Source of the DNA: a virus | Direction: 5' to 3' (one strand) | Length of the DNA stretch: 31,746 nucleotides | Virus record (IMG/VR): IMGVR_UViG_3300010160_000155 | Span: 1-31,746 of that record | Shown here: positions 2,907-27,963 of the stretch, in pieces | Layout: every line of letters starts with the position of its first letter | How positions within the stretch are numbered: position 1 is the first letter of the stretch | Position numbers and translations under genes: made by a program | The notes under the pieces: model-generated | What the model saw: the letters and a program-made list of their open reading frames with translations, nothing else | The model's database searches: none | What the model was told of the DNA's origin: nothing

Positions 2907-3243
2907 ATGTTCTTTTGCTCCATTTGGTAGTGGGTTGTTGTTCTGACACCACTATGCTCACATCAGTAGGATCACAAGGTGTGCCAGTGTCTCCGGGAAT
3001 GAGTTTTACACTGGTGGTCCGTGCTATTTCAATCAACTTTCCATCCTTCACTCTCATGTTGGTGTAGGACCGCGCAAAAGTCTCGGCATCAATCTCAATA
3101 TATGTACCTGGAACATCTTCCATGCTGTAGAATAATATACGTCCTTGATCGTCGTGGTACAATCTAAAGAACACCGGTCGAGGCTCGGGCATTGCATACA
3201 ATGCAGCCCAGAATTGTTCTTCAGTTAAGGGTTGGTTTGACAT
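2893..3243 (-). CDS. Conserved-looking hypothetical protein, 116 aa
   Basis: I do not recognise a named family. The protein starts MSNQPLTEEQFWAALYAMPE and is soluble, with no signal peptide or membrane segment. The central part alternates short strands (VFFRLYHDDQGRILFYS, then GTYIEIDAETFA), which suggests a small alpha/beta or beta-rich domain; the last 25 residues look like a flexible tail. The ATG at 3243 overlaps the upstream gene's TGA region by 23 nt, and the 3' end overlaps the next gene by 14 nt. Both neighbours are glycosyltransferase candidates, so it may be an accessory subunit or a small regulator of that cassette, but nothing in the sequence proves this. The coding call rests on the tight overlaps and a plausible protein composition. 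Confidence 0.7.
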   Translation of the reverse strand: MSNQPLTEEQFWAALYAMPEPRPVFFRLYHDDQGRILFYSMEDVPGTYIEIDAETFARSYTNMRVKDGKLIEIARTTSVKLIPGDTGTPCDPTDVSIVVSEQQPTTKWSKRTYESN

Positions 3244-8920: not shown

Positions 8921-11900
8921 TTATAGACCACGTAAAAACCTTGCAGCAATAGTTTCAGTATCTTGCAGAGCAATACCATCACTTGGAGTGGTCGGCCCGC
9001 GTTGATACCAAGTCACTCCGTGGCGTACCAATATTGTGACTTCTACATTGGCCACAGGTGGTAGCAATGGTGGATATGCAGTGTCATCCACAACAAAATC
9101 CACAGCCAACGGATCAAAATCTGTCACAAACCAACGGTATTGGCTGGTAGCAGTGGTGTCACTGTAGGCATACTGGCGGATGCCAGCAACATATACTTCG
9201 ATAGCAGGTGCTTCGCTACTGCTGTCAACAAAATCATCAACATTTATGCTAGGTGCATAGAATACCGTGGTAGATCCATCACCTATGCTAGTGTCTGAAA
9301 CTATGTAATCTTGATAACTGCTCTGTAACAGATTACCACGGCTAAGATCATATACTGCTGCGCCTGTGTCATGATCTGCTGCTGCTGTACCAGCAGTACC
9401 TCGCATGAGCCCGTTGATACTGTTATCTACCAGATTAATGCCACGATACATGATACGTTCGCCATTTACGGTGCAAACACCAAACACACCAATATCTAAG
9501 TTAGGCTGTCCCAATGCGTTAGCATCTTCAACATACATGATATTACCGGTTGCAGTGAGTGGTTGCATCAATGCTGTGGTACTAGCAGGTGTGATACGAT
9601 ATGTGGCTTGTACTCCACGCATGTCCTGGAATATGCGGAATGCCATTGCATCAGGCACTATGCTGCTGGTCACTTCGGTTATGGCCATTATCTGGCCGGG
9701 CTCGATGGCACCTGATCCCAGTATGAGATATTCACCTTCCACTGTGTAATCTATGCTATTGGTCAGAGCATATCCATCTAGTGTGACCCATAATCTAGCA
9801 GCATTGACATTGGCACGCTCTAACCAGAATTGATTGTCATACACCGCATCTCCTTTGCTGTATGAGTAACTCCATTGTGTATCATTCACTGTTGCATAAT
9901 CAAAACTTCCCGGCTGGCTGTTATATGCCGGATCATTTGGCAATGGGTCAAATGGATCTACAATTTCCACACCAGTAACTATTGGACCGTTGAATACCAA
10001 GGTCAGCGGATATTGTTGTGAAGTATCATTGAAGGTTGTTACACTAAACAAGTCGTCGAGATTGACTGCTCCCACAATCTGCAAAGTGGTACCGGCCAAT
10101 TGATATCCAGCTTGAGTGGTCACTGTGATCAATATACGAGCACCAGCAGGAGGTGGTACATTAAACACGACCTCACGATCGTTAGTTCCTGAATAAGGTG
10201 TCACACTATAAACACCAGGCACACCACCAATACTTTGTTGTTGTAGTATGTTATCTACCCACACAATAACGTCTGTTGTGGCATTTATAATCGATTGACT
10301 GTACCCCCCACGGTTAGGCAATGCAAATGCCAATGAACTACCGTCACTGGTCCATTCACGACCTTCCGGAGGTTGTAATCTCAACCCATTGCGATCAACT
10401 ATCATGTTAGCAAGATTGCTACCTTGTACTGAATTGGTCAATGTGGTACTCTTGAACGTGACAAAATTAGAATCTGCTACAATATATTGTGTTTGTGGCG
10501 CGCTCCAACTATACACTGTAGATGCTTTACCAGTGCCCGATCCAATTCCGCTAGCAGTGAATACTGTTCCTACAGTATTTGCTCCAGCACCGATGGCCAC
10601 AAAATTAGTTGTACCCACTTCTGTGATGGTATATTGTCGGCCAATGATAAAGTACCCTGCATCTATGACAGATACCCCAAACGCAACTAGTGCTATACCA
10701 TCGGTATCATCATATACTGCCCCTAGATCAACAATTGATTGCAAAGTAGGAACATATTCTAACCAATACAATGGATCAGCAATATCGATACCGGCAGGCA
10801 CATCTTTTAATGCACGATAATAAGTCTCTGCTGAACTGCCATCATTGGTATTGACCAGGTCTTGTTTGGCATAGCTGTTTAGTTGATTCCAATCTACACT
10901 AGGTGTGTATGGAGTCCACCCCACTACAGTAGTAGATACACCATTTACAAATACTGCGATACTGATTATTTGTGCAGAATTGACTGGAATAATTGTGGTC
11001 TGAGATCCTGTTCCCGTGAAATTATCACGATACAATTGATTGCCGCCACCTAATTCATATGCCGTGACGCTAAGTATATCTCCGTTGGCCACAGTGAGTA
11101 CTGTGATTGTTTGTAGAACCCAATCCACTGAATAATCAATATTCAGAGCCAATGGAAGATTAGTAGTGGTATTTGTTACGAAGATTCCCACTGGGTTCTC
11201 TACCAGGCCTGCCCAACTGAATGTGTCTGTTACCGCAGCCTCGTAAAGATAACGAGTGTCCGCTAATTGGAATCCATGCCCATCTCTGTTCCAATCAGCA
11301 CCTGGACGTGTATAAACACGCAGGTCAAGTGTGTCAAATTCTGCACCATTCACTAGTTCTTCGGGGGCATGCCCTTCGTACAATCCGATAAATTCACCGC
11401 CATCTACGTTGATGCTGGTAAATGTGTTACCAAGTGTTGTATCAGTGAATGTGCTGGCATATATAGCATCCTCGGGAGCTGTGTCCAGGAAGTAATTTCC
11501 ATACACTTGCACTCCTGGATAGTCCACACCGTCAATCAACAACGGCAAATCCAATCCGGGTTGATTTGGTCCGGCAACATATAGACCCATGGTACGATCG
11601 ACACCAGTTAAATCTCTAGCTGGGATCAATGTCCAATCTTCAAGATTGAATGTGGGACCCACCACTGCTGTGGAATCTGCACTGGCAGCTTGCCACACAC
11701 GATCATCGTAGCGTACTAATTGCCCATCTTGATATGTTCCGCTCGGGCTCCAATCTCTTACATCGCTAAAGTATTGGAATCGATCATACTTGATCGTGGT
11801 CTTGAAGCTACGTGCCAATCCCGGAGTGATCCTTGCATATGCTATGGCTCCAGAGCCAACACCGCCACCGCCGCTGAACGATATGCTCGGAGTCGATCGA

Positions 11901-14900
11901 TAAACTGCGTCAGAGTAAGTGACATTCACTGCCACTACTTGTCCTAAACTGTTAATTACAGCAGTTGCTTCAGCAGCCAGTCCAGCATATGCCAGAGTAG
12001 CAGTACCGTTGGTTTGTAACCCACTGGTAGTGAAAGTAGGTGGCTCGATTCCAGTGATTCCATCCACGACCACTGTGTAGAGATTGGTTGTGTTGTTGTT
12101 TGCATAGAACAGTTGCTGATTGATAGTCACAGAGGTATTACTGGTCCATGCATCACCCACAATCACTATTGGAGGTTCTGTGTATCCTGTACCATTATCA
12201 ACAATTGTTACAGCAGTAAGGGTCAGCAGATAGTTGTTGTACCATTGATCGTACGGGAATGTGTTCCATACTGTGCTGTTAGCAGGCAAATCGCTTAAGA
12301 AGTTGGCCACATCTGACGATCCGTGTTGATAAGGCAGCAATATAGGACTAGTATATTGAGGTGTGGTCAGTGTGGTATTGTAGTAGGCTGGTAAATCAAA
12401 GTCAGTGAGACTGCCCTGGAATTGATCAAGCCCGTTATATCGTAGATTGAACTCACGTAATTGCACATGGTAAGGTTTGACTTCTTTTATGTAATCCAGC
12501 ACAAATTCTTGATTGTCCCTACGATAGTTTTGATAAGGTACTAGATTTCGAATTCTGTGATCCACATCGATCAAGCTGGTCTTGACTAACCATTCTGGTG
12601 CAGAGAATTCGCTCAATACAAAATTGAATACCAATGTCAATGCACGATTGCGTTCAATCGCCAATTCGTCAATCAACAATTCTTCATTAATCGCTTGTAT
12701 GATTTTTCGTGTTTCTTTTACAGGTTCTTGATCATAATATTGTGCATCAAATACTTCAATGTCAAATCCAAATCTGCCCAATTGATAATCCCACAATTCG
12801 GCCGAGAATGCAATAGTACCATCCTGTAATCCCACACGTTCCCATCCCGCATCGGTCAATAGATATATTTCCCATTTACCTTGAGCATTGGCTGTGATTT
12901 TCACACTACTACCCACTGCCACGGTTAATGTATCTAATCCAGCTTTATTAGGTATTGTGGCTATGACTTTACTGCTGGAATTGTATCCTGGAAGATACCA
13001 GTCGATATAACTCCAATAGTCGGCTGTGTTGTATCCTTGCACAAACGATAGTCGTAGAAGTCTTTTGCCTGCTGTTTGATCGCTGGCTGCCACTGTGTAA
13101 ATGGTCCATAGACCTTTGTTGTCGCTGTCGGTCACTACCAAATAGCGATAGCCCAATGGTACAGTATAGATGTTTTGGAATCCCAATATCTCTAAATTCG
13201 CCACACGTAGATTCCATAAACCAGTTGCTGCACTTGGTTCAGGTTCGGCGCTGTTGAGCAAATTAAAACTGCGACTTTCTGAGATTGAATACATGGACAA
13301 CACATCATTGACCCTGGTGAGATAGTTTTTAAGTGCAGCAAATCTATCCACAAACATACTTTGTCGTGGGCGGAACTGCACACCATATCGCTCAGCCGGG
13401 CCGAGATTTGGATCTGGTACGTTGTTGCCAAAGGTATCCACACCGCAGAAGCTGTCTTGTAACTTACGATAGAGATTGGTACTCAAGAAGGCGTCTGGTT
13501 TGCCTTCGGCTATTAGTTCATATTCAGTATGTACGTTACTGTCTGTGGCTTCTCTGTCAAAAGATATGTTGATCACTGTATCAGATGCCACGATGTACTC
13601 AGCGGCATTGTACAGGGCAATGGTGCTAGCATTTATAGGTGCCATGTAAGTGATACCACTGGATTTAGGGTCAGTGATATATCGTGCCACAGTGGCCACA
13701 CTCAGTGTTTTACCTTGTTGAGTAGCTGTGGTTGTGATACCTCGCACCCAGAAATAATATTCAGTAGCAAATATGCCGTCTCTGGTAAGTCTGGTATTGA
13801 TGCTGTAGCTGATTGTGCTGTATGGTGTTCCCGGTCCGGTATAGTTGATCGGAGGTACCGGACTCAGTATCCATTGATATACATCTACAGAACTGCCCGG
13901 GAATAGTTGTCCCCAACGACGACTAGCATAAGTTATGTCGTCTTGATTAGGGTCAATGAATCGGACAGTACTGGTGTCCCACCATACTTCGCTTGTGTGT
14001 CCGTCCCACCAGGTGGCACCGTTGATGCTAGTAGGGCCAATATTATAATTGGCCGGATCTATACCGCCGATGTAGTCAATATTTTGTCTAGCTGCACCTA
14101 GAATCTTGCCTTGTAATGGATCAAAGAAATCAAAGAACTGTGTAGTAGCACTGGTGACCCGATCATATGCAAACACTCCATTGATCAGTCTGATATCAAC
14201 CACAGGTTGTTGTTGTCTGATCACTGTCCAAGCTGGGTTACGATCGGGATTTTGGAATACAAACACACGACCGTAATCTGCTGTGCTGTCTCCTACATCA
14301 TTCTTTGGTGCGCCTGCTACTAGAATGCCATCTATATAGTTCACGGCTGTGCCAAATCCATCTAATGTGTTGATCTGGCTGTTGTTGATCTGTTGTCCAA
14401 ATATAAATTGCCCTGGATTTGATATGCTGAGAGTCGAAGATGGCAAATAATCATATGCATACACAGCACCACTGTTATTCACTGTGGTGATGAAGGTGGT
14501 GCTATCTGCATCAAAATCTGTGGTGCCATCATCAAACACTGTGATCAGATACAGAGTACCGTTTGGTGCTCCCACGACCACAGTGGTGGCCTGATCCGAA
14601 ACACTCACGCTGGATCCAAACGCACCATATTTTACAGGATATGGACTGAGGATCGTTTGTGTAAATGCAAATGTCTTGAATGCCAATGTAGTGAATGCTG
14701 TGCCAACTGAGCCCGGCGCTACTTGCAATTTATTAAATGCCGGTGCTGCATTGCTGTTCTTAACAGACACTGTAAGATATCCGGTTGAATCCACTATGGC
14801 AACAACATTTGGAACTGTACTGTTTATGTGGGCGGCCAGCGCACGTACATAGATGCTGGCAGCCACAGTTGTTGTGGTCACTGATGACCAGTAGCTTGCA

Positions 14901-17900
14901 TTGCTCAGTGCTGTGGCAGCAGGCACAGCCTGCAATGCCAGATAGATGGTGTATGTGGTACCTGACAAGTTATAGACCACATCATTTTTGTTGTATGTGG
15001 TCAAGCTGCTCCAGGCAGCAGGAACTGTTACATCCATGTTATTCACACGCAAGGTATTTCCTGAAGTCAGTGCAGCATTGGCCACTGTGGATGTGATAGT
15101 TCCGTAGATGCGGCTTTGATTTACATCACGTTCGACCACGCCGCCTTTGTAGATCTGTACGCTGCTTTGCGGAACACCCGAATACAAACTGCAATCATAT
15201 GAGCAGATATCCACAGTCTGCCCAAAATTCGAAAAGTTGGCTATGGTATTTTGAGTAAGCTCTTGCACCTGTGCAAATTGATTGGTTTCAATCTCAATCA
15301 CGTCACCATATTGCAAGTCCGCATTGATGGTCACTGTGTTGGCACCATTCCAGTAGAAGGTGTTGTCTGCACCAACTACACTGTCAGTCTGGTTGGTCAA
15401 GAATACATTATTAACAATAACGCCGATCGGTGCCACCGGGGTGCCTAACAATGTAAATGTTACGGTTGAGCCATCTTCACCATAGATAAATCTTTGTACG
15501 TTGCGATCAAACACATATACAGATCCTGCTTCAACATTCCCACTTTCGGTACTGTAAGGTGTGCCAATTAATAGTTGGCGGCCATCTGTGGTACAGGATA
15601 TTGAATGACCAAATCTGTCAGATGAACTTAATCCAATGGCTGTGATTGAATTAATATATGTGAAATAGCTTTTTGCCCTGGCCACAATAACTGCACCAGC
15701 AGCAGGACCTGTTCCGGTAAATGTCAAATCCTGGGTGACTGTGCTGAATGTGTAATCGATGTTGGGGCGATACAACACATTATTGACTTCAATACTGAAG
15801 CTGTAGATGTTGGTAGCAGTGAAGAAATATTCGTTCAATGAAAATACCGTAGCCAACGTAGGTGCAGTATATGCGATATTGAAATTACCCAATGTACCGC
15901 CAGTGCCTATTGAAGTAATGGTAAGCACAATATTGTTGGTGCCACCAAAACTTGCGCCGGCAATGGTTATGGTATTACCCACGGCATAACCCGAACCAAA
16001 TGATGTAGCACCTACGCCGCCCTGTGTTGAACCCGGTTGTCCAACTTCACCGCGCACACGGATTATGGTAAATTTAGCACCAAGGCCGCTGCCACTGGTA
16101 GATGTCTGTGGCACATCATAATAGGTCTGTGCATCCAGCTGTTGACTGCTGATTCTTTGCATTTTTATCAACACACCCGAGGCAGGAGCTGTGGTAAATG
16201 TGACTTTGTTGAATGCTGCATCCACTGAATAGCCTGACAATTGAATATTGCCATCCAATGTGACTTTGAGCTGGCTGCTGTTGTCGATTTGTATCACGTT
16301 GCCAATAAGGAATTGAGTAGTAACCCCGTCGCCTAGCACCGTGATAAATTGGTCTTCCCAGGTCACTCGCCCGTAAGCATAAACTGTGTTCAACCCTGGA
16401 GCACCAACGTACATCCAACGTTCATCTAAGCTCATGGCCACGGAATATCCAAACTCTCCGGCACCAGGAGTGGTTGATGTAGTGGTGCCTGGCAGGGTCA
16501 ATAGCTGCCATTGTGCAAATGGATTCACACCAGGTTGCCCTAATGCAGGATCTCGGTAGATCACCGCAGCATAACCATTGTTAGTTTCGCTACTGGGTCC
16601 GAGACTCTTGCTGGCACCGGCTACTGCCCAAGTTTGATTACCAAAATCTATAGCATTTCCGTAACCGCGAACACCGGTACGATCCAGAGTCAGGATGCCA
16701 TCGGCGTCGGCTATTGGGCTGACCGGAGAGTATGTGTCCCCTGAATTTTTAACATATACATACACAGCACCTTTTTCGGTGACTGTACCAAATCCATATC
16801 GTGGGCTACCCACAAACAATGCTGCTCTTGCGCTGGCCTGTGCCACAGCAGAACCATATTGTTCTCCCGCATCCAACAGTACTGGGCTGATCTGTGACGA
16901 ACTAGTGAATACATCTTGTTTCTGTATCACCTCCCAAAGATCTTCACCATTGTTATCCACCCATACTATGGCACCTGGCAGGATGTCGTTGGCGTATGGC
17001 AGATTGATCACGTCCGACGCTTGTGCCACACGCATGGTCTTCAATGTGAATCCCAATCCGGTACCATCGGCCACTGTGCGTTGGTTGGTAAATTGGAACG
17101 CAATATTCACTGTGGTTATATTGGGCACACTTAGTACATTATATACGCCATTGACTTCGGAATCAAAGAAGTTGATGATCAAGGTATCGCTGTATGATAA
17201 GCCGTGTGGCTGACTGAATATCACTCTGCTGGTTCCGTCAAGATTGTCGCATACGTGCTGTATGGCTCCCGGAACAGCCTGCGCACGATAGATATTCCAG
17301 TCGTAGTCATTTACTTTTGCGACCCATATTGAAGTACCAACTGCAATAGCATCAAGGTTGGCCGAGATATTACCCAGATCGTTTATGTCAAATACTGTGA
17401 TATCTGCATCATTAAGATTTACATATCCAGCAGTTGGCAGTTGTATATCTGTAGGCGATACAGTAGTAGTCGGCATAAAATCTGGAGAAGTCAGTTTGTA
17501 ACTTTGCTTCCATATGTCGCTAAACAATATCTGTTGATCTGCAGAGCTAGCTTGTTGTGGCAATACCACTTGTACTAGACTAGGGTTGCTGCTGAGATAT
17601 GCACGATTCAATCTAAGTTCAACAAAACTACGGTTGGCATTGGCGCCATATGTTGCTCGTAACACCGCCCAGTTTTCATAGATACTGTAGTCAGCCGCTT
17701 CTTTTCCTAGATTGGCATTGGAGAACAGCTCTGCACTGATGATTGTGCCTTTAGAGCCCAAGAACTGTCGATACACATTCAACTGACTCACATCATCTAG
17801 ATTTAATGCAGCCATGTACTGGCGAGGACGGAACCCAATCAGTCCATAGCTTAACAAATCATTATCGGTTTCAAGATTGGCAGAATTGATATTGTAACTG

Positions 17901-20900
17901 TTGGCCAATTGATCAGCTTTGTTGGCCAAGTTAGGCAACAATCCCAATTCAATTTGAGTGTAATCGCTCTGTGTCCAATCATTGAAGTTGAATTGCGCAC
18001 TTGGTTGTACGATGTTTAGCGCACTCCAATACACATTCTTGTACTTGACTATCTGCCCTTTGGTATAGCGTTTTAACCCAGTCCATTCTTGCACATTGTC
18101 TAGATTGAGTATGAATCCAGGCGTATCAATTTGTCCGGTCCAATCAGCAGTATTGGATGCTATGAGTATCAACCGGTTTTGGCGAGCACCGGTGGTAGGT
18201 TGATACATAAGATCTCCAAACACACTCTGATTGTCTAACACAATCATGTGCTCATAGGTAGTGTATTTTAGATCAATGTAGCTTAAAGTCTGAGTAGTCA
18301 ATGGCTCACAAACAAATGTATTGCCTATACGTACCACATTGAGATTACGTGTGGGCAATTCTCTATTGTTCTGATCCAGTAACACATTATCTATGGTTTG
18401 TACCGCGATGCTGTCTACCACTGCTTGCTCACGAGTGACTGTGAGTTTTGCTGCTAGTGGGTTGAGATTCAATAACGCATTCTCCCCCCACCCTTGTTGG
18501 CTCCAGTACAAGAATTCATTGCACATCTGTCCCCAGTCCAATACATATCCATTGGCACGATCGGTAAAGGTTATTCCTTGTTGTTGTAGTAATTGCCCAT
18601 AGCTTAACAAGAAATCACAAACACTTGTTTCATTGGTGAATATGGTTCCATACGGAACTTGAACCACAGTGTTGGTATAGAAGGTAGGCACACGCACAGT
18701 TGCGCCGCCCGAAGTTATTGTACGCAGTTGCCCTGTGGACTTACTGGCCAACACATTGAAATACGGTTGTGCCGCACTGTATCCATACACAGCATATCCC
18801 CCGGTCACATTCTGTATGACCACTGCCGAGTAGCTGGTGCGATCAAATGGTTGATTCTTGTACAACAACAGATTATAACTTTGATCAGGTATCATCAAAG
18901 TGGTGTTGGTAGAATTAGGGCTGGACTTTTCGGTGAATATTTTGATGTATTGTTTGTCTGAGAAACTGGCCATGCGATAGCACAATCTCACGTCAAGACT
19001 GGCCAGATCAGCTGTTAGCTCATCAGTAGAATTAATACCACTTTGGCGATTGTAATCAACTATCCAGTCAATGTAGCTGGCTTTGCTGACTCCATTACCA
19101 TATACTTCGATGCCATTGGCATCTAGACGATATCGATCATTCAATAGATACTGCCCAAATTCCACATTGTATCGATACAAGTCACGATCAGCAAACAATG
19201 CAAAAAACTTGGCTGTGCGAGTCACTGCCAGCACATGCATCACTGCAAATGGATAGCTAGAGCTGTTCCAGAACGAAGCTTCAACTGGGCCGCCATCTCC
19301 CGGTGCCCAACTCTTCTGGAATTGAGCATTGGCATAAGTTCCCATGGTGCTGTTGAATGGGCTGAGTAATTGCCCTTCATCACCAGTGGGAATAACTGGT
19401 GCCATGGAAGGATACGGGCCCGGTCCCCAAATACCGCTACGTGGGGGTTCGTCAGCAGATCCTATACTGGCTGGACGTGCATATTCTGGGCGGAAATACG
19501 GCGCCACTGGGTCAGCAACATAACCAGCGGCCAAATCATCCCACAACACCAAGTTGTCGCCGGTGTATGGTGCCGGACCATATTTGCCTTCCCACCACAG
19601 CGGCTGCTTGCTGAAGCCCAACATTTCCCAAGGAGTATATTGTGGTTGTTCGGTGTCGTAGAAATAACGATTGATACCGCGCCAGGCTCCTAGAAGATTT
19701 TCTTTGCTGTTTAATTTGTTCTGTGCGGAACTGTAGTTCCAAGTAAATTTGTTGTCGGCACGGAAATTTTGTGTGCGGTAATCAAGTTTGTTAGCACCCA
19801 CGTAGCTCAAGAAATCTTGATTCAATATGTTAGTAATTTCAGAATAGCTGAATCCTGTGTCACGGAACTGGCCTGGTAAGACATTTTCGATAGTAAGTGG
19901 TACCGGATTTCCATCTAGCTTGAGATTGTTATAAATCCTGGTTTCAAATTCCAGCAGTACCTGGTCGCGAATATCGTTGAATAGCGGAGTGATAGATCCA
20001 TCATGACCTTGTGTTACCTGCACCATACCACCGCTGGCTCGCTGAGTAATAACCTGTGGAACAAATGCTGGATACAATCCCAGTTTAGTCGGGGTGTTGG
20101 GAGCAAAACTTCCATAGGTGGCGCTGTATTCTTGAAGAACTAATTGGCTCCCCAACGGCAGATCAACTAGAACAGTTATACGAGGACCATCTGTGGCCAC
20201 TACATAGTCACGGTCTCTTGTGAGCAATGCCTCACCTAGATATACATTCATTCCCAAATAATTAGCTGAACGATAATTATAAACTTGTACTGTATCAAAA
20301 CTGCCAGTATCAGTATAGCCAATGGTATAGGTAGTGGTTGTATAAACTGCACCAGACGGTAACATATCAGACCAATAGAATGGCTGTGTTTCAACGCGAC
20401 CCAGGGTAACATTTTGTATTGCGGTGTCTAATATTTGCGAGATAGTATCAAAACCAATAGTTTGTTGTGTCACTGCATCCAACAGCTGATACTTGTATTT
20501 GTTATATTCTCTAGCAGCAAAACTCAATGAAGCAAAGATATTGTAGTCCGGTGACCGTAAAAAATAGCCAGCCAATGTCATTGGCGCACTTTGTTGCAAT
20601 ATAGTCAATCCATACGGAACTAGATTGCCCAGATCTCTGGTGTTGTTAGATCCATTCACTGGCCCTTGAACTGTCAACAGATTTTGACAGATACTTTCAT
20701 AATGTGTTCTTATGGTGCCCAGTGTAAATTCCGGACTATTTCCATTCAACGGATTGTTCTGCAGATTGATAGGCACTTGATAAAATGCTGTGGCGCTGGT
20801 CTGATCACTCAACACCAACACTTCAATGATATCACCGGGTATATAGGTGTTGTTTAATGTGATTGTTGTGCTAGTATCAGTAGTAAGATAGCTATAAACA

Positions 20901-23900
20901 CCGGGTTCCTGGAATACTGACCCTACATATATTTTAATTGGCGGGGTATTATTAACTGAACTGTTGGCTTTGACATCCAGCTTGAGTGTAGCACCGGTAT
21001 AGGTAAATTTAAACTGCTGATATGTTTGACTTTTTGTTGCAGCAGTCTGCCATCCTATTAGGCGTTGATAAGTTGCACGAGTGTCATACTCTCTCACGGA
21101 TCCTGAGCTGATGTCAAGTGTCACGCTGGCATTATCAACTACATACAAGAAAGTATCTTTGTATAAGTTATTAACAAAAACAATATCACCCACGTTGTTG
21201 ATATTGAGATATTGCAAAGGAAACTGCAATATAGGATCTATTATAGTAGTATCGCCCACTGCATAGCTGAACAACTTGCTGCCAGAAAATGTTGAGCTTT
21301 GATACACCGTCTGATCACCAAAGCTGTATCCAGAGGTGTTATATACATTGAACAACGGTGCCTGTTGTACTGCGGTTTTTTGTTGTGCTTCGATCCAGTT
21401 GGTGCCATCAAACCAAAAAGTCACACCAGCAGATGTTACGCCATTGAGACATACAGTACATTGATCGGCCAATACTTCACCATCTTCCGCCGGTGTGAGA
21501 TTGATAATAGGCTGTGCGATCAGCGGAGCAACAGTGTCTGGCACAATAAATGACACAACATATATCTTGTTTCTGACACTTTGATCTTCGTCTGCTGCAA
21601 ATATCACTCGACTGCCGTCAATCAATGTGTATCCATCAATGGTATATCCAGTGGATCCTTCTATATTGCTGAATGCGTCGGTCTGAGCAAAATCAATTAT
21701 ATCAACTGGGGTTTTACCTTCGGTACCCATGTTCCATAGTCTGATATCAGGACGGAACTGGATGATCGGACGTTTGGCTCTATAGTTGTTATCGAATGTT
21801 GCCACAGCATTATTGTATTTTGCTGTGGCATTAATCACATCAGTGTGGAACCAACGATTACTACGGCTCCATGCATTGCGATCCAAGCTAGCACGATTAA
21901 TAGTAAGATAATCAGTTGTGTCGGGTTCTGTATAGATTGTGCTGTCGTTGGCATCAACCACATACAATTCAGGAGTCACAAAGTTTTCAACGGGTAACAG
22001 CTCAATTGCAGTTCCTACTCCACTTACATAATATTCCAAATCGCTGACCACTGTGGCAGTGACATTGCCACTGCCGATATCCAATGGATATGCCCCACCA
22101 CCTTTTTGTGTGCTGATGCTAAATTGTATCCCATTAGCTGCTATGCTCTGTACATAGTATGTTCCGGGCAAGACGCCGCCAATGCTTTGACTGAATACTA
22201 TCTTTTCTCCAACATACAGATCCGCTGTGGATGCTGTTGTGAGATAATTGCTGCCTGGCTGAGCGGCAGTAATCACCAATGGAAAAGTTCCCGAGCCATA
22301 AGTGGCCGGTGACACATCACCAACAAATTTTACTTTGAGTCCGTTTGTAAAGACCACACCATTTGGGCTAGTATAAGATGGCTGGCCCAAGATGGCATCA
22401 ATAAACAAAGTGGTGCTGGCTGTTTGTTCTACCAAGCGGATACGGCCAAAGATCTCCGGATCTGTGCCGTCTTGATAATACAATATATCTTGTGCAGCGG
22501 TCAGCAAAGGAATGCGTTCAAATACACCAGCTGCGGTTTTATACCATTGGGTATTGCTGTATTGTATCCCATATCTTGCTGTGAATTTGTTCAGCACCGG
22601 AATATCCGAGATCTTAGACAAAGTCATGTAGGTGTAATGATCAACAGTCACATAGTTGATCTGCCACAGCTGATAACGATCTTCAGGAGGCACAGGTGAT
22701 GACTGGCTGAAGAACGTGGTATCATAGCTGCCTACTAATCCGTTGTTTGAACTGGTCTCGGTCAATGGATCAAAGAACGTATTCACTTGCCAGCCACCGG
22801 CTTCAGCATCAGTCACGGGTTCAGTGAATACCAATGTGCGGCCGTTGAGATTGGCTGTGCCATCGATGCCGCCGTATGTGGCCAAGAACTGCTCCACCGG
22901 TTGGTTATTGACCTGTTCAAATTTGAGATCACAAATTATATCTACAGGAGTGATCACTAGTCCATTAGAATTTACTCCAAACGGGGTCAATGAATAATAA
23001 AAATTCTGTGCAGTTTTTTGTGGCACATTGAATACCACTGTACCAAGGTCTGTACCATTGTCGGATACTCCCAACACATCTCTTGAACTGATATTTGGAT
23101 TGTTAGGATCTTTGCCATTCACTCCAGGAAAGGCTTGTATCCAAAATCCTGGTCCTGTACCTGGCACGCCGTCCACGATGTTTAGCGTACCTTGCATGTT
23201 CATTTGTGTTTGGCTGGCATAATACAGTGTGCTAGGTGCGTCTTGTGGCACAGTGAAGGTGACCAGGCCAGTTACCGCACCATTTCTTGTGACTCCAGTA
23301 TCATACACATCGCCCACTCCTGTGACCGGTGCTGTCTTGATCCAGAATGGAAAGTCTCCGACAAATACCAAATTAAACACATAGGTGTTACCACGCACAA
23401 GTGTAAGAGTGGGATTGCGTAATCCATCCAATAGGTATGCAGACGTTCCTGAATTGCCCACACGATAATTCACAGTTTCTTTAGTGTTCTGTGCTATTTG
23501 GAATGTATAGCTGCCACCACGCACAAGATCGATCACTGGATTGTCGCCAGTTACTCCTGAGAATGTGTAGACTCCATTTTCACGTGTGACTGCAAAGTTG
23601 TCAGTGGTGGGGATAGCGGCTGCTTGTACATCCACTGCATCGGGTCCGGCCGGCAGCCAGAAATACTGGCTGAAATTCACAAAGGTATCAAAATCTACAA
23701 ACGGATCCCAGCTGTAGTATTCACTCTCATACAGTCGGTCAGGTCGAGCACTATCGCCACCACTGAATCCCACTGCATCATTGATGCCCGGATAGGTGAT
23801 GGCATTTTTAATAGTGTTTGTATCAGGAACCAAACTGACCACGCCGGGTTCAAGTTGGTAATCGGTTCTGATAGCATCTGGTTCTACCACATAATTGTCA

Positions 23901-24061
23901 TTGGGATTCACACCGGGACCTACTGTTCGCCCGATGTATCCTTGTGTTTGCTTGAACTTTGGCTCTTGTGTGAGTTGATCCAATGTGGCAGCTAGAAACT
24001 GCTTGTTGGTATCAGTCTGAAAAATCTGTGGGAGTAAATCTACCGAACGTACAGTGGCCAT
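8921..24061 (-). CDS. Giant modular virion protein, 5046 aa, tail/baseplate-associated
   Basis: A single uninterrupted frame of 15.1 kb. The N-terminus (LLPQIFQTDTNKQFLAATLD, then YYSWDPFVDFDTFVNFSQYF) matches a conserved start I associate with giant structural proteins of T4-like aquatic phages. Modules seen: cupredoxin-like beta domains (about residues 154-380); 'GDGSTTxF...V.VNG...G..I.V' beta modules (about 1017, 1240, 2572, 2740, 2860, 4275, 4347, 4569, 4924); CBM5/12-like W..Y..GD.V modules (1992, 3014, 4099, 4387, partly 4725); seven FG-GAP-like units (2400-3271); a conserved core with DYIKEVKPYHVQLREF (about 3850); Gly-rich GxGYT..P units (2681, 3953); and a GTTNFVAIGAGAN module (4456). 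There is no signal peptide or transmembrane segment. The ATG overlaps the gp6 stop (TAATG), the position held by gp7 in T4. A role in a host-adsorption or baseplate-peripheral structure is inferred. The modules are by-eye assignments. Confidence 0.88.
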   Translation of the reverse strand: MATVRSVDLLPQIFQTDTNKQFLAATLDQLTQEPKFKQTQGYIGRTVGPGVNPNDNYVVEPDAIRTDYQLEPGVVSLVPDTNTIKNAITYPGINDAVGFSGGDSARPDRLYESEYYSWDPFVDFDTFVNFSQYFWLPAGPDAVDVQAAAIPTTDNFAVTRENGVYTFSGVTGDNPVIDLVRGGSYTFQIAQNTKETVNYRVGNSGTSAYLLDGLRNPTLTLVRGNTYVFNLVFVGDFPFWIKTAPVTGVGDVYDTGVTRNGAVTGLVTFTVPQDAPSTLYYASQTQMNMQGTLNIVDGVPGTGPGFWIQAFPGVNGKDPNNPNISSRDVLGVSDNGTDLGTVVFNVPQKTAQNFYYSLTPFGVNSNGLVITPVDIICDLKFEQVNNQPVEQFLATYGGIDGTANLNGRTLVFTEPVTDAEAGGWQVNTFFDPLTETSSNNGLVGSYDTTFFSQSSPVPPEDRYQLWQINYVTVDHYTYMTLSKISDIPVLNKFTARYGIQYSNTQWYKTAAGVFERIPLLTAAQDILYYQDGTDPEIFGRIRLVEQTASTTLFIDAILGQPSYTSPNGVVFTNGLKVKFVGDVSPATYGSGTFPLVITAAQPGSNYLTTASTADLYVGEKIVFSQSIGGVLPGTYYVQSIAANGIQFSISTQKGGGAYPLDIGSGNVTATVVSDLEYYVSGVGTAIELLPVENFVTPELYVVDANDSTIYTEPDTTDYLTINRASLDRNAWSRSNRWFHTDVINATAKYNNAVATFDNNYRAKRPIIQFRPDIRLWNMGTEGKTPVDIIDFAQTDAFSNIEGSTGYTIDGYTLIDGSRVIFAADEDQSVRNKIYVVSFIVPDTVAPLIAQPIINLTPAEDGEVLADQCTVCLNGVTSAGVTFWFDGTNWIEAQQKTAVQQAPLFNVYNTSGYSFGDQTVYQSSTFSGSKLFSYAVGDTTIIDPILQFPLQYLNINNVGDIVFVNNLYKDTFLYVVDNASVTLDISSGSVREYDTRATYQRLIGWQTAATKSQTYQQFKFTYTGATLKLDVKANSSVNNTPPIKIYVGSVFQEPGVYSYLTTDTSTTITLNNTYIPGDIIEVLVLSDQTSATAFYQVPINLQNNPLNGNSPEFTLGTIRTHYESICQNLLTVQGPVNGSNNTRDLGNLVPYGLTILQQSAPMTLAGYFLRSPDYNIFASLSFAAREYNKYKYQLLDAVTQQTIGFDTISQILDTAIQNVTLGRVETQPFYWSDMLPSGAVYTTTTYTIGYTDTGSFDTVQVYNYRSANYLGMNVYLGEALLTRDRDYVVATDGPRITVLVDLPLGSQLVLQEYSATYGSFAPNTPTKLGLYPAFVPQVITQRASGGMVQVTQGHDGSITPLFNDIRDQVLLEFETRIYNNLKLDGNPVPLTIENVLPGQFRDTGFSYSEITNILNQDFLSYVGANKLDYRTQNFRADNKFTWNYSSAQNKLNSKENLLGAWRGINRYFYDTEQPQYTPWEMLGFSKQPLWWEGKYGPAPYTGDNLVLWDDLAAGYVADPVAPYFRPEYARPASIGSADEPPRSGIWGPGPYPSMAPVIPTGDEGQLLSPFNSTMGTYANAQFQKSWAPGDGGPVEASFWNSSSYPFAVMHVLAVTRTAKFFALFADRDLYRYNVEFGQYLLNDRYRLDANGIEVYGNGVSKASYIDWIVDYNRQSGINSTDELTADLASLDVRLCYRMASFSDKQYIKIFTEKSSPNSTNTTLMIPDQSYNLLLYKNQPFDRTSYSAVVIQNVTGGYAVYGYSAAQPYFNVLASKSTGQLRTITSGGATVRVPTFYTNTVVQVPYGTIFTNETSVCDFLLSYGQLLQQQGITFTDRANGYVLDWGQMCNEFLYWSQQGWGENALLNLNPLAAKLTVTREQAVVDSIAVQTIDNVLLDQNNRELPTRNLNVVRIGNTFVCEPLTTQTLSYIDLKYTTYEHMIVLDNQSVFGDLMYQPTTGARQNRLILIASNTADWTGQIDTPGFILNLDNVQEWTGLKRYTKGQIVKYKNVYWSALNIVQPSAQFNFNDWTQSDYTQIELGLLPNLANKADQLANSYNINSANLETDNDLLSYGLIGFRPRQYMAALNLDDVSQLNVYRQFLGSKGTIISAELFSNANLGKEAADYSIYENWAVLRATYGANANRSFVELRLNRAYLSSNPSLVQVVLPQQASSADQQILFSDIWKQSYKLTSPDFMPTTTVSPTDIQLPTAGYVNLNDADITVFDINDLGNISANLDAIAVGTSIWVAKVNDYDWNIYRAQAVPGAIQHVCDNLDGTSRVIFSQPHGLSYSDTLIINFFDSEVNGVYNVLSVPNITTVNIAFQFTNQRTVADGTGLGFTLKTMRVAQASDVINLPYANDILPGAIVWVDNNGEDLWEVIQKQDVFTSSSQISPVLLDAGEQYGSAVAQASARAALFVGSPRYGFGTVTEKGAVYVYVKNSGDTYSPVSPIADADGILTLDRTGVRGYGNAIDFGNQTWAVAGASKSLGPSSETNNGYAAVIYRDPALGQPGVNPFAQWQLLTLPGTTTSTTPGAGEFGYSVAMSLDERWMYVGAPGLNTVYAYGRVTWEDQFITVLGDGVTTQFLIGNVIQIDNSSQLKVTLDGNIQLSGYSVDAAFNKVTFTTAPASGVLIKMQRISSQQLDAQTYYDVPQTSTSGSGLGAKFTIIRVRGEVGQPGSTQGGVGATSFGSGYAVGNTITIAGASFGGTNNIVLTITSIGTGGTLGNFNIAYTAPTLATVFSLNEYFFTATNIYSFSIEVNNVLYRPNIDYTFSTVTQDLTFTGTGPAAGAVIVARAKSYFTYINSITAIGLSSSDRFGHSISCTTDGRQLLIGTPYSTESGNVEAGSVYVFDRNVQRFIYGEDGSTVTFTLLGTPVAPIGVIVNNVFLTNQTDSVVGADNTFYWNGANTVTINADLQYGDVIEIETNQFAQVQELTQNTIANFSNFGQTVDICSYDCSLYSGVPQSSVQIYKGGVVERDVNQSRIYGTITSTVANAALTSGNTLRVNNMDVTVPAAWSSLTTYNKNDVVYNLSGTTYTIYLALQAVPAATALSNASYWSSVTTTTVAASIYVRALAAHINSTVPNVVAIVDSTGYLTVSVKNSNAAPAFNKLQVAPGSVGTAFTTLAFKTFAFTQTILSPYPVKYGAFGSSVSVSDQATTVVVGAPNGTLYLITVFDDGTTDFDADSTTFITTVNNSGAVYAYDYLPSSTLSISNPGQFIFGQQINNSQINTLDGFGTAVNYIDGILVAGAPKNDVGDSTADYGRVFVFQNPDRNPAWTVIRQQQPVVDIRLINGVFAYDRVTSATTQFFDFFDPLQGKILGAARQNIDYIGGIDPANYNIGPTSINGATWWDGHTSEVWWDTSTVRFIDPNQDDITYASRRWGQLFPGSSVDVYQWILSPVPPINYTGPGTPYSTISYSINTRLTRDGIFATEYYFWVRGITTTATQQGKTLSVATVARYITDPKSSGITYMAPINASTIALYNAAEYIVASDTVINISFDREATDSNVHTEYELIAEGKPDAFLSTNLYRKLQDSFCGVDTFGNNVPDPNLGPAERYGVQFRPRQSMFVDRFAALKNYLTRVNDVLSMYSISESRSFNLLNSAEPEPSAATGLWNLRVANLEILGFQNIYTVPLGYRYLVVTDSDNKGLWTIYTVAASDQTAGKRLLRLSFVQGYNTADYWSYIDWYLPGYNSSSKVIATIPNKAGLDTLTVAVGSSVKITANAQGKWEIYLLTDAGWERVGLQDGTIAFSAELWDYQLGRFGFDIEVFDAQYYDQEPVKETRKIIQAINEELLIDELAIERNRALTLVFNFVLSEFSAPEWLVKTSLIDVDHRIRNLVPYQNYRRDNQEFVLDYIKEVKPYHVQLREFNLRYNGLDQFQGSLTDFDLPAYYNTTLTTPQYTSPILLPYQHGSSDVANFLSDLPANSTVWNTFPYDQWYNNYLLTLTAVTIVDNGTGYTEPPIVIVGDAWTSNTSVTINQQLFYANNNTTNLYTVVVDGITGIEPPTFTTSGLQTNGTATLAYAGLAAEATAVINSLGQVVAVNVTYSDAVYRSTPSISFSGGGGVGSGAIAYARITPGLARSFKTTIKYDRFQYFSDVRDWSPSGTYQDGQLVRYDDRVWQAASADSTAVVGPTFNLEDWTLIPARDLTGVDRTMGLYVAGPNQPGLDLPLLIDGVDYPGVQVYGNYFLDTAPEDAIYASTFTDTTLGNTFTSINVDGGEFIGLYEGHAPEELVNGAEFDTLDLRVYTRPGADWNRDGHGFQLADTRYLYEAAVTDTFSWAGLVENPVGIFVTNTTTNLPLALNIDYSVDWVLQTITVLTVANGDILSVTAYELGGGNQLYRDNFTGTGSQTTIIPVNSAQIISIAVFVNGVSTTVVGWTPYTPSVDWNQLNSYAKQDLVNTNDGSSAETYYRALKDVPAGIDIADPLYWLEYVPTLQSIVDLGAVYDDTDGIALVAFGVSVIDAGYFIIGRQYTITEVGTTNFVAIGAGANTVGTVFTASGIGSGTGKASTVYSWSAPQTQYIVADSNFVTFKSTTLTNSVQGSNLANMIVDRNGLRLQPPEGREWTSDGSSLAFALPNRGGYSQSIINATTDVIVWVDNILQQQSIGGVPGVYSVTPYSGTNDREVVFNVPPPAGARILITVTTQAGYQLAGTTLQIVGAVNLDDLFSVTTFNDTSQQYPLTLVFNGPIVTGVEIVDPFDPLPNDPAYNSQPGSFDYATVNDTQWSYSYSKGDAVYDNQFWLERANVNAARLWVTLDGYALTNSIDYTVEGEYLILGSGAIEPGQIMAITEVTSSIVPDAMAFRIFQDMRGVQATYRITPASTTALMQPLTATGNIMYVEDANALGQPNLDIGVFGVCTVNGERIMYRGINLVDNSINGLMRGTAGTAAADHDTGAAVYDLSRGNLLQSSYQDYIVSDTSIGDGSTTVFYAPSINVDDFVDSSSEAPAIEVYVAGIRQYAYSDTTATSQYRWFVTDFDPLAVDFVVDDTAYPPLLPPVANVEVTILVRHGVTWYQRGPTTPSDGIALQDTETIAARFLRGL
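14250..16864 (-). other. FG-GAP-like propeller region of the giant protein
   Basis: Seven units share the pattern [YF]G.[SA][VI]...........VGAP......G.VY.Y. They begin at about residues 2400 (EQYGSAVAQ...LFVGSPRYG...VYVYVKN), 2462 (GYGNAIDF...VAGASKS), 2532 (EFGYSVAMS...MYVGAPG...VYAYG), 2811 (RFGHSISC...LLIGTPYS...VYVFDRN), 2941 (NFGQTVDIC...YSGVPQ), 3140 (AFGSSVSVS...VVVGAPNG...VYAYD) and 3228 (GFGTAVNY...LVAGAPKN...VFVFQN). Seven FG-GAP repeats make the beta-propeller of integrin alpha chains. Units 3-4 and 5-6 are separated by long insertions that contain other beta modules. Units 2 and 5 are the weakest. The propeller fold is inference from the repeat pattern. Confidence 0.65.
22925..23605 (-). 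other. Cupredoxin-like beta domains near the N-terminus of the giant protein
   Basis: Residues 154-380 contain repeated LVRG[GN][ST]Y[TV]F strands and then DFPFWIKTAP...GVTRNGAV...FTVPQDAP..LYYAS....MQG. This is the strand order of cupredoxin-like domains common in marine phage structural proteins. The usual Cys/His/Met copper ligands at the end (Y.C..H..M.G) read YYASQTQMNMQG here, so copper binding is unlikely. A further related stretch ends near residue 380. Confidence 0.5.
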
Positions 24062-27000
24062 TAAATTACTCCGCTGCCTGGTGCAGTACGCAGATTGGTA
24101 CTGGTAAGTGCTTCAATCACTTCAATATTGTCAATGGTTGCTGCATTAACGAACAACTCATTGGGGGCCGACCGTACCTCATATAAATCACCAAAATACT
24201 TCTGTGAGTTCAGTGGTACCAATACCACTGAACTGATGATGGTTCCTAACATACGGTGTAGATATGCTGCCAGCTCAGAGAAATAAAATGTGTCTCCAAA
24301 ATTCCATTTGTCAATGCTGAAGTAAGTATTCATCTCGGCCACAACTGAACTCTTGATCTCACTGGTGCTGGCTGTGCTATTAGAAGCGCGAATAACTTTG
24401 ATGGTAGCACGAAGTTCTGGTGCTGCTTTCATACCAAACATTGGTTTAAATATCACCGGGTTCAGGATAATGTTGTCGCTGATCATTTTGTAATTCTGCA
24501 GCCCTTGGTATGCTGTGTTCAGTTCGTCAATGGTGGGTAGATCAGGTTGTGCTACTGTACCAGTAGTATCTCTGATCCAATTTTGATAAGAGGTGTAATA
24601 GGCCTGGGGCACCACATACAGATCAATGATATTGGTAGTGCCTGGATCTATCCTGTTGGTTAATGGTGAGTTGTGACGATACTGATAGTAAAGGCTCTGG
24701 CGTCCTGTACGTGCTATCCACCCTGATACTTCAACTAATGTGCGTACTCCAGTTACCGAAATGCTGAGTTCGTAGAATGTGTCTTGGCTGTAGGCATAAA
24801 ATACCTGGCCCGGAGACCATTCACTCTTGACCAATTCAATATCATCTATAGTGGCATAGTCTGAATTCACTCGTCCTTGTTCTACCAACAGATAGCGTTG
24901 CAAATTATCAAAATCCACAGTCTGCTGCAAGAAAACTAATTTTTCATTTGCATTTGTGGCAGGAGCCACTATTTCTGTAAAGAAGTCTGGATTGTCCGGC
25001 ACACCATCACTGTCAGAATCTCGATAGCTGACCAGTACCTGGAAGTCATCCACGTATCCATCACTTTCAACTGGTTGGCCGATGATGGTCATTGGAATAT
25101 CACCAGGTAAGTGTGCAGTAGAATCTGGTTGTGTATTGACTGCCAACACATTGACATAATCCTTGATCACTGTGCCAGTGCGGCTGTCATAAACTTGTTG
25201 GCCATCATAAAAGAAGAATCGGGTCTGTAATACAGATCCAAAATTGTATTGTAATCCACGGAAAGTAATTGTGTAGCTTTGATTCACTGTGACAAACTGT
25301 ATCAACCAACTGGCATCTGTATTGACCCCGTTGGTGTTACCAGCCAGGCCCGGTACTGTTTGGCTCCAGGCAGCATCTTGATCCAAGTTGGTGCTGGTGA
25401 TCAGATACCACGAATACGGAGTTCCTGTGACAGATCCATCGTTGTCGTATCCCAATCCAAAATTGCGATACAACACGATCTGCTCACTGATGGCTGTTTC
25501 CAGAGACAATGGCAAGTCTGTCACAAACAACGGAATGATGCTGTCAACAATAGCGCCGGTAGGGACAAAATTGTTCAATGTGATTGGTCCTGTACCGGAT
25601 GGAAGATTACCCAATCCACCATTGTACCCATCCCCAAGCACCTGTAACGGGCTGGCCCAGATTTCTACTGTTTCATCTGAACGAGTGGGAGATCCTTGTA
25701 CCAATCGATTGTTACGATCAAAATAGTATCCAGTGGGTGAAACGAATTTGATCAATGCTCCTGGTGTCACAAAGTAAAATGGGTTTGTTATGCTCACAAC
25801 ATTGCCCACTGGTATGGGTGTGCCGCTGGGCCAAGTGCTGCTGACCGTGCTGTTACGGAAGAACCCAGTGGTTTGATTGGCCAGAGTGGTACTTTGTTGC
25901 CAAGTGCTCAGTGCTGTGGTTCCTGTATTGACCGCTTGACGAGGAAAATTTGCATAGTAGAATTGCTTTACAATGGGCGCAAGCAGTTGTGGTTGCACTT
26001 GATTTGTTATGACATCTGCGATTTCATTCCTGGTATTCCATGTGAATAGTATGGTAGGCAATACATTTTGTTCCCATAGACCGCCGTCGCTGCCAAAGGT
26101 ATTGGTACTACTGTATTTGCCGGTGTTATCCACTAGATCAAGATAACGGCTGGTGCCGATGCTGGCACGATTTACTGCCTTGCTCTTGAGAATGGAGTTA
26201 TACTGAGTGTATGGAAAGAGATTGTAATCCTCGCCATTGACCATTCTGTTTTGTGTGTAATACTGTGCCGGGGCACGTTGTTTGATCTGAGCGATAGGTT
26301 CGCGCGATTGACTATTGCTCACAGGTTGTGTGATACCACAAGTGAAAGTTACAGTTTCAAGATTGCCACTGCGACTGATATAACTGATAGGCAAGCTGAC
26401 TGCTTGCATTTCTTCAGGATTGATAATGTACTGTAATCCATTGGATGCACGGACATAGCAACGGAATGTACCAACTGGTATTTCACTGAATACGCCGTCG
26501 CCAAACACCAATGTGATCTGATCATTGGCTCTGCTGGTCACGGCAAATATAGGACGTAGGCTAGTTCCAATCTGTTCTGCGGCAGCCGAGTAAATGTTTT
26601 CCTGATACTGCCATTCACGGTTGATGTTGCCCACATTATCCAATTGAAACAACCAACGATCTTCTTGATTGACACCGTCAATGTTGATATTTACAGTACG
26701 GTTAGAAATACGCTCGGGCAGGTTGAAGTCTTGATTCTGTAGCACGCCCTGCTTGAACATAAAAAAATAACCGGTGTTGTTGCTGTTGAATCCCAGCTGA
26801 TCATTGCGGAACAATATGTTGAATGCCTGGCTGGGTTTAGGGCTTGGTTCGTATAGATAGTTTTCACCAATTGAAGTGCTGGTCATTGCTTCAAAGGGCA
26901 TGTTGATTCCATCCACTGTGGCAGTATAAGGGATCACCGGCAAGAAACCCGGTACTAGATTGATGCCATATTCATCGGTGCGCACACCCAAGATAGTCTG

Positions 27001-27524
27001 TCGATTTCCTGGACGTCCCACACGTTGGGTATCAACCAGTGCCGCATTGATGATAGTGGTGAATTGTTCTTGCCAGTCGGGGTTGGTAGGATCTGACCAA
27101 TCCACTGTGACGTTGCTGAGATTAACACCATTGTAATCTGTGACATTTTCTGTTGTGACAACAGAAAATACTTTGAGCAGACCTTGTGCTTCTGTGTTGC
27201 GTTTGCTGTGTAGCTGACTAAATTTGCCAACTGCACCACTGAATCTCTACGCTCGGCCGTGTCTATATAGTTTTCTCGTGTGTTGAGATCGGTACGGAAA
27301 GCCAGTGCTTGGCCCATGAATGCCATCACGTCCAGCAGAGCAATAAACTCGCTAGACTCAATGTAGTCGTTGAATGTTTCGGGATAGTACAGGCGCAGAT
27401 AATCAACAAAACTTTTGCGCAGAGTTTCAAAATCGTAGCTTTGGAAGTCAGCTTCGCGATAGGTCTGGTAGATCTGTTTCCAGTCCTCTACTCCAAAGAT
27501 TGCGGTTTGTCTAGTTGTTGCCAT
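24061..27524 (-). CDS. gp6: Baseplate wedge protein, gp6-like, split by a frameshift near 27203
   Basis: The gene begins at ATG 27524 (MATTRQTAIFGVEDWKQIYQ) and reads in one frame to about residue 107 (NLVSYTA). It then continues, one frame away, as RNTEAQGLLKVFSVVTTENV...VDWSDPTNPDW to the TAA at 24061. Rejoined with one extra A, it makes 1154 residues. The N-terminal helices, the SRE-like LDVMAFMGQALAFRTDLNTR segment and the C-terminal WNFGDTFYFSELAAYLHRML fit the gp6/baseplate-J family. That family forms the inner wedge ring joining baseplate wedges in contractile tails. The protein is much longer than T4 gp6 (660 residues), with a large central beta-rich insertion. It lies downstream of gp25, the usual order. 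Whether the split is a sequencing error, a mutation or recoding cannot be decided here. In the shifted frame the first internal start is GTG 27105. Confidence 0.85.
26955..27524 (-). CDS. N-terminal reading-frame piece of the gp6-like gene (189 codons, only first 107 native)
   Basis: This is the 5' open frame as it stands in the sequence. Residues 1-107 are the authentic N-terminus of the gp6-like wedge protein, including ADFQSYDFETLRKSFVDYLR and ENYIDTAERRDSVVQLANL. From residue 108 the product becomes NATQKHKVCSKYFLLSQQ and so on to a stop at 26955. That tail is the shifted translation of codons that, in the other frame, give the expected wedge sequence. If the deletion is real, this frame would yield a truncated 189-residue protein and the baseplate protein would be lost. 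It should be read together with the main gp6-like entry and not as a separate gene. Confidence 0.6.
   Translation of the reverse strand: MATTRQTAIFGVEDWKQIYQTYREADFQSYDFETLRKSFVDYLRLYYPETFNDYIESSEFIALLDVMAFMGQALAFRTDLNTRENYIDTAERRDSVVQLANLVSYTANATQKHKVCSKYFLLSQQKMSQITMVLISATSQWIGQILPTPTGKNNSPLSSMRHWLIPNVWDVQEIDRLSWVCAPMNMASI
27201..27206 (-). other. Apparent -1 nt indel in a poly-A run of the gp6-like gene
   Basis: On the minus strand TAC ACA GCA AAC GC breaks the protein; with a fourth A (GCA AAA CGC) it would read YTAKRNTEAQG and join the two frames perfectly. The run is AAA at 27204-27202. It is a short homopolymer, a common site of read or assembly errors. The local sequence is not a canonical X-XXY-YYZ slippery heptamer. 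Confidence 0.8.
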
Positions 27525-27585: not shown

Positions 27586-27963
27586 CTAAACAAAACTAGC
27601 TCGTCGGCTTATGATATCAAAGAATATGCCCAGGCGAGTGGCATCAGTGGATGGCGTGACAGTGACTTCTATCTGTATCAAGATACCGTTTTCTTCAGGA
27701 AATATCTGTATGTCCGAAATAAACACTCTGGGGTCTCCTCCGGCCACACGTTGCACTTCGGCCACTATGCTATTCTGTAGTTCTTCAATTTGATTTTCAA
27801 ACAAGAAGTTCCACATTATGGTGCCATAGTCAGGACGCCCTGGCAGTTCACCTTGCCGGATATTGAATGCATTGGAAAGATCGCGTTTGATCAATTCAAA
27901 GTCAGTGAGAGTGAATTTCTTATACTGGTTGATGGTATTGAAACCTATGAATGTCTGCGCCAT
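27586..27963 (-). CDS. gp25: Baseplate wedge subunit, gp25-like
   Basis: This 125-residue protein is close in length to T4 gp25 (132). It has the GPW/gp25 layout: an N-terminal strand (FIGFNTINQYKKFTLTDFEL), the NAFNIRQGELPGRPDYGTIM segment that carries the family's R-x-G-E..-.P..G hallmark, then a helix (FENQIEELQNSIVAEVQRV), DPRV and paired strands (FISDIQIF, GILIQIEVTV). gp25 sits in the baseplate wedge core and contacts gp6 and gp53; the family is thought to help start sheath polymerisation. The gene lies between the 555-residue structural gene (20-nt gap) and the gp6-like gene. The ATG at 27963 is the only sensible start. Confidence 0.93.
   Translation of the reverse strand: MAQTFIGFNTINQYKKFTLTDFELIKRDLSNAFNIRQGELPGRPDYGTIMWNFLFENQIEELQNSIVAEVQRVAGGDPRVFISDIQIFPEENGILIQIEVTVTPSTDATRLGIFFDIISRRASFV

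Follow-up and report, generated by a model that had tools for sequence, protein, structure and literature searches.

This study concerns a 31,746-nucleotide stretch of DNA from an uncultured phage (the window; positions 1 to 31,746 of IMG/VR record IMGVR_UViG_3300010160_000155) and a propeller-like segment of the giant protein encoded on its minus strand, where all window features described below also lie. The giant gene (8921..24061) specifies a virion structural protein of 5,046 amino acids that belongs to the phrog_10938 family, and its start codon overlaps the end of the upstream baseplate wedge gene. Residues ~2387-3275 (14237..16903) are strongly supported, by sequence patterns, a predicted fold and a predicted likeness to integrins, as a closed FG-GAP propeller with seven blades, of integrin-alpha type, together with its insertions. 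A preliminary description had proposed seven FG-GAP-like copies at residues 2400-3271 (14249-16864) and an integrin-type seven-bladed propeller built from them in a giant phage tail protein. The copies are confirmed by a pattern count, and the propeller is strongly supported by the sequence, AlphaFold2 and VIA-align together.

The units were counted with a relaxed pattern, [YF]G..[VI], 3-16 residues, then G[ASTV][PS]. It matches seven times in the 5,046 residues, always within the segment, with starts at residues 2402, 2467, 2537, 2817, 2946, 3148 and 3236. None of 1,000 shuffled sequences reached seven matches (mean 0.24, maximum 3). When a VYxY-like strand is also required five matches remain, against a shuffle maximum of 1. 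The units are unit 1 (residues 2397-2437; 16751..16873), the degenerate unit 2 (residues 2462-2504; 16550..16678), unit 3 (residues 2533-2566; 16364..16465), unit 4 (residues 2813-2854; 15500..15625), unit 5, whose strands A and B are separated by a conserved CxxxC (residues 2944-2974; 15140..15232), unit 6, with a long B-C loop (residues 3144-3206; 14444..14632), and unit 7 (residues 3233-3272; 14246..14365).

Relatives of the segment (residues 2380-3300) were found at 74 loci in viral contigs, denoted L followed by a number. Both flanking anchors are present in 64, which reduce to 41 non-redundant regions. Alignment A1 has 40 rows, the window replacing the 100% identical L004 and the partial L026 being left out, and 57 of its columns are invariant. 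Frames of the relatives that do not run off a contig mostly have 4,400-5,213 residues, and a few are broken. Family searches on both flanking sides (the best 80 of 585 and the best 80 of 593 relatives) yielded 207 frames with both anchors, in which cultured phages are included, contigs are repeated and SCTP-2 is absent. These frames form 108 clusters.

All 40 aligned sequences match Pfam FG-GAP_2 (PF14312) at least once. For the half of the window protein that matches, one stretch is over the cut-off (36.9 bits vs 23), unit 4 being the sole unit to pass, and three stretches in the window reach E≤1e-3. FG-GAP PF01839 has no listed match to either half of the protein at E≤1, and when run on unit 1 by itself it reaches 13.5 bits, short of the required 22.1. 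These general models are less sensitive than the family's own unit profile, which finds seven units in 95 of the 108 homologue clusters, six in 4, four in 1, eight in 2 and none in 6. The extra hit in the two eight-hit clusters resembles one unit split in two (five frames listed). Among the 77 clusters without a member in the profile, 64 have seven units and 6 are propeller-less. Over the 207 frames, contig repeats included, the profile gives 1,404 hits inside the site and 0 outside. The preliminary description had regarded fewer than five units matching an FG-GAP profile as evidence against a propeller. Pfam applied to the window sequence alone does find fewer than five, whereas the family profile finds seven in most homologues.

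The units were also compared with one another. Profiles made from the window sequence by leaving out one unit at a time recognize units 1, 3, 4 and 6 above all 200 shuffles, and units 2, 5 and 7 fail to beat all 200. With hhalign and 40-row profiles of units 1, 3, 4, 5, 6 and 7, 12 of the 15 pairs score 87-97%; the weaker pairs are 3-7 (21.5/29.9), 5-7 (58.6/17.4) and 6-7 (81.6/54.4). These profile comparisons show the six units to be related repeats, although the relation is weak for three of the 15 pairs. The best hhalign value of unit 2 is 43.6, against at most 33.1 in 280 control comparisons, and this unit is assigned because of its pattern and the predicted structure.

AlphaFold2, run on the 40-row alignment, gave a 921-residue model with a predicted local distance difference test score (pLDDT) of 88.1 and a predicted template modelling score (pTM) of 0.88. 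In a VIA-align search with this model all 50 listed rows are integrin entries (Z 34.4-38.1, 16-19% identity), and the best row (Z 38.1) superposes 363 residues at 2.9 Å. The matches begin at model residue 3-5 and end at 894-902, which is the whole segment. The predicted strands can be grouped into seven blades of four strands each, with A, B and C at every unit. Outer D strands of blades 2-6 are predicted at 2515-2522, 2799-2806, 2921-2936, 3131-3138 and 3218-3225, and that of blade 1 is uncertain. Residues 2387-2391 are assigned here as the putative closing strand of blade 7. A fold search of the viral library BFVD has an uncultured Caudovirales protein as its top row and several proteins named FG-GAP, so FG-GAP proteins in viruses are not new as such.

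Several observations weigh against this reading of the segment. Pfam alone puts only one window unit over its cut-off, unit 2 is barely recognizable by sequence, and the blade count comes from strands and motifs, not from coordinates. The top three PDB rows of Foldseek are non-integrin, the first integrin standing at rank 4 with many more listed, and the TM-scores in its listed rows, normalized by query length for the full 921-residue model, are low and do not exceed 0.31. Such low whole-model scores are expected because of the large inserts, which is no proof. Against the PDB, profile A1 gives weak rows only (the best integrin alpha-IIb at E 0.41, then CTLA-4), phmmer with the segment gives nothing useful, and tblastn of the segment against cultured phages finds no match at 1e-5.

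The blades carry long insertions. The preliminary description had counted two; the window has three, in blades 3, 4 and 5, and in addition a long B-C loop in blade 6. Insertion 1 (residues ~2567-2798; 15668..16363) occupies the C-D loop of blade 3, contains phage beta modules and has a weak DUF2460 match below the cut-off. Insertion 2 (residues ~2860-2920; 15302..15484), in the C-D loop of blade 4, has no Pfam match. Insertion 3 (residues ~2982-3130; 14672..15118) occupies the C-D loop of blade 5, and nested in it is a module resembling carbohydrate-binding module (CBM) family 5/12 (residues 3016-3062; 14876..15016) that is absent in, for example, L014 and L065. The three C-D loops measure about 225, 70 and 148 residues in the window, that of blade 3 being the largest. 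Over the 40 rows the C-D loop ranges from 133 to 242 residues in blade 3 and from 93 to 216 in blade 5, and in blade 4 it reaches 119 in one row. The B-C loop is a constant 6 residues in blade 3 and 33 residues in 39 of the 40 rows in blade 6; it jumps to 65-69 residues in blade 1 (5/40), 91 in blade 2 (1/40) and 95-96 in blade 4 (2/40). Relatives gain or lose modules of ~50-85 residues in particular loops. In the standard propeller topology the C-D and B-C loops face opposite sides, so both faces of the propeller would be used.

Insert modules reappear in more than one blade and also close to the C terminus of the giants. Contig repeats included, a profile of the CBM-like blade-5 module matches 64 times inside the site and 61 times elsewhere in the giants. 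A 45-residue "GTTNF…IGA…NTVG" module lies at window residues ~4468-4512 and is also found in L040, L054, L073 and others; its profile, counted in the same way, has 29 matches inside the propeller site and 65 outside, and it resembles a mobile structural module. The T7 tail-fibre N-terminal domain (PF03906), which is the clearest Pfam match within an insert, matches in 10 of the 40 regions and is over the cut-off in the blade-3 insert of L049. Flagellin_IN matches 5 of the 40 regions and is below the cut-off on the tested L014 insert (blade 5). The earlier proposal that adhesin modules are inserted therefore stands in part: the loop-length jumps and the recurrence strongly support foreign modules plugged into the ring, but their identity as adhesins does not follow, the clearest match being the T7 fibre domain and the CBM match being below its cut-off.

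Calcium-type loops of the integrin kind occur in none of the 280 unit windows (0 of 40 sequences in each of the seven units). In blade 5 a C-x-x-x-C motif between strands A and B (residues 2953-2957; 15191-15205) is kept in 39 of the 40 sequences. Its position is presumably that at which integrin blades may hold calcium, and it could possibly form a metal site or a disulfide.

Some relatives lack the propeller. The giants of the cultured jumbo phages GAP32, PBECO4, PA5oct, Atu_ph07 and SCTP-2 match on both flanks of the propeller site. The anchors are 1,036 residues apart in L004, the twin of the window, 122 in GAP32, 124 in PBECO4, 181 in L238 and L241, 336 in PA5oct and 1,548 in Atu_ph07. 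No FG units were found between the anchors in GAP32, PBECO4, PA5oct, Atu_ph07, L238 or L241, and the record of SCTP-2, which is not anchored at the site, is without a PF14312 match. L238 and L241 have an empty site: a short loop of ~25 residues links the two strands that would enclose the propeller. A model of the L238 scaffold (overall pLDDT 70, pTM 0.50) has this loop at residues 369-391 with pLDDT <50, between strands 361-366 and 393-399. By alignment and model, the propeller sits where propeller-less relatives have a predicted ~25-residue loop between two scaffold strands. The record of Atu_ph07 has FG-GAP_2 units at 243045-243311 in a separate 409-codon frame, not in the giant, and BFVD contains an Atu_ph07 "Hemagglutinin protein" with a fold similar to that of the propeller model.

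A tree of the flanks (46 rows, midpoint root, long-branch warnings) needs two changes for the propeller. L238 and L241 group beside the propeller-bearing L235 with support of 97/86, to which the same warnings apply. This tree is consistent with either one gain and one loss or two gains. A scan of genome contigs returned 30 pattern matches with no relative among them, and so identified neither a cellular donor nor a host.

A small domain precedes the propeller at ~16997-17287, mapped approximately from residues 230-327 of the L238 model. Most VIA-align rows of the L238 scaffold match this domain, at model residues ~230-327; they include ubiquitin E1 enzymes, phage endosialidases and tail or tail-tube proteins, with Z values of 7-10 and up to 10.1. 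Pfam searches on two stretches of the domain found none.

The giant gene comes directly after a gene that matches PHROGs named "baseplate wedge subunit" (24061..27524), and further upstream lie genes with matches to gp25 and to baseplate hub families. The gp25-like baseplate wedge gene (27586..27963) is over the cut-off of PF04965. In the window the wedge gene is split over two frames at 26955-27105; L248, which is 99.9% identical, has a single open frame, 1,164 codons from stop to stop, and the split is probably a sequence error of the record. In four of the five cultured jumbo phages (PA5oct, Atu_ph07, GAP32 and PBECO4) the giant also lies right after a gene named baseplate wedge subunit, and in GAP32 and PBECO4 a gp25-named gene comes next. 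The gene preceding the giant of SCTP-2 bears no function name. The PA5oct homologue of the giant is annotated ESI-MS/MS, that is, mass-spectrometric detection. We take the upstream wedge gene to be gp6-like and the hub gene to be gp5; by T4 gene order the giant gene, directly after gp6, would presumably be at the position of gp7. This gene order suggests that the giant protein lies in the baseplate region.

With the seven units, the conserved core, the gain and loss of modules, the empty sites and the gene order read from the sequences, we infer a place in the baseplate, outward display and binding as follows. A loop joining two strands of a giant baseplate wedge-region protein would hold the ring. 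The scaffold would clamp both of its ends, and the ring would supply stiffness. Around it, the C-D loops of blades 3-5 (and in relatives the B-C loops of blades 1, 2 and 4) would display small beta modules, and these could bind glycans or other host-surface molecules, or dock fibres. A rigid outward platform of this kind, presenting loop modules for glycan or host-surface binding or for fibre docking, is the reading that we favour with some confidence, because modules are gained and lost against a conserved core. Host contact by the ring is plausible.

Other results count against such a platform or its location. A phmmer search of the PDB with the upstream gene found no solved gp6, only three weak unrelated rows, and the scaffold (model pTM 0.50) has no T4 gp7 match in the PDB profile searches or the listed fold rows. 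The blade-5 module does not reach the CBM family 5/12 cut-off (PF02839, E 0.027, 14.9 bits vs 26.2). Hypervariation, as a sign of host contact, was not found in five close relatives: ring identity is 80-83% in L006, L007 and L009 vs 88-89% in the flanking cores, it is 70% vs 74% in L008, and L005 has no difference.

A serious rival, possible in our judgement, is that the propeller braces neighbouring baseplate parts or docks fibres between them, its loops binding baseplate or fibre proteins and not the host. The lack of hypervariation fits this explanation, as does the fact that blade 3 has the largest insert of the window and that its L049 counterpart matches the T7 fibre N-terminal domain. 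In T7 gp12 the propeller is described as keeping adjacent subunits together, with a blade-3 loop that leads out (PMC6702177). However, the gain and loss of modules on several blades seem too much for a fixed interface, and propeller-less homologues exist. A stronger form of host contact is likewise tentative. The propeller might be a receptor-binding head in the baseplate with swappable glycan-binding modules, so that recognition would lie partly in the wedge protein and would evolve by exchange of modules between blades and not by point change. It is improbable that a foldable domain simply came to lie in a permissive loop and is tolerated there as a hitchhiker that does little by itself: the empty site in L238 and L241 and a tree in which two changes fit one gain and one loss agree with this, but seven units are kept in 95 of the 108 clusters and 57 columns of A1 are invariant across its 40 rows. 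A chance resemblance in a beta-rich protein of unrelated sandwiches, which the single Pfam call over cut-off might suggest, is ruled out for practical purposes by the confident AlphaFold2 ring, the integrin superposition, the hhalign pairs, the family profile with its hits confined to the site, and the shuffles.

Full-text searches of a collection that covers few subscription journals listed no title reporting a phage baseplate with a propeller of FG-GAP or integrin type. On the platform reading, a lineage of contractile-tail phages would have a propeller of integrin type within a giant protein of its baseplate region. With natural empty sites and graded gains of modules at hand, the roles of the ring and of the individual modules can be tested, and the same features may partly account for the 5,000-residue length of such tail proteins. 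A ring held in a loop and bearing exchangeable small domains suggests a built-in platform for docking or for contact with the host cell.

The segment resembles the head of the integrin alpha subunit in its predicted fold over the whole length, in the order of its FG-GAP motifs, in the N-terminal strand assigned, from the model, as the outer strand of blade 7, and in carrying domains inserted into the ring. In integrins an N-terminal outer strand closes blade 7, an I domain is inserted in the ring between blades 2 and 3, and several blades of the alpha subunits have calcium-binding DxDxDG loops. The phage protein differs in having its inserts in C-D or B-C loops, in the low identity of the listed rows (16-19%) and in having no calcium-type loop; because these loops are absent it is not filed as an integrin alpha subunit. 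Relative to FG-GAP_2 (PF14312), the window units other than unit 4 are below the cut-off, and the set is broken by long inserts. The giants of PA5oct, Atu_ph07, GAP32, SCTP-2 and PBECO4 have homologous flanks, but are without the FG-GAP propeller. Among phage proteins, a report on gut phages describes a predicted propeller in one of their structural proteins and cites those of T7, SU10 and K1F (PMC10607447). The propeller of the T7 nozzle protein gp12 is described as a seven-bladed ring closed in velcro fashion, whose extended loop in blade 3 reaches another domain, with the strongest contact between monomers at the propeller; the terms integrin and FG-GAP are absent from the main text on it (PMC6702177). 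Both proteins would have a seven-bladed propeller with a long blade-3 loop in a phage tail protein, gp12 being the ring protein of a short-tailed phage, whereas the propeller of the giant appears as an insert in a protein of the baseplate region.

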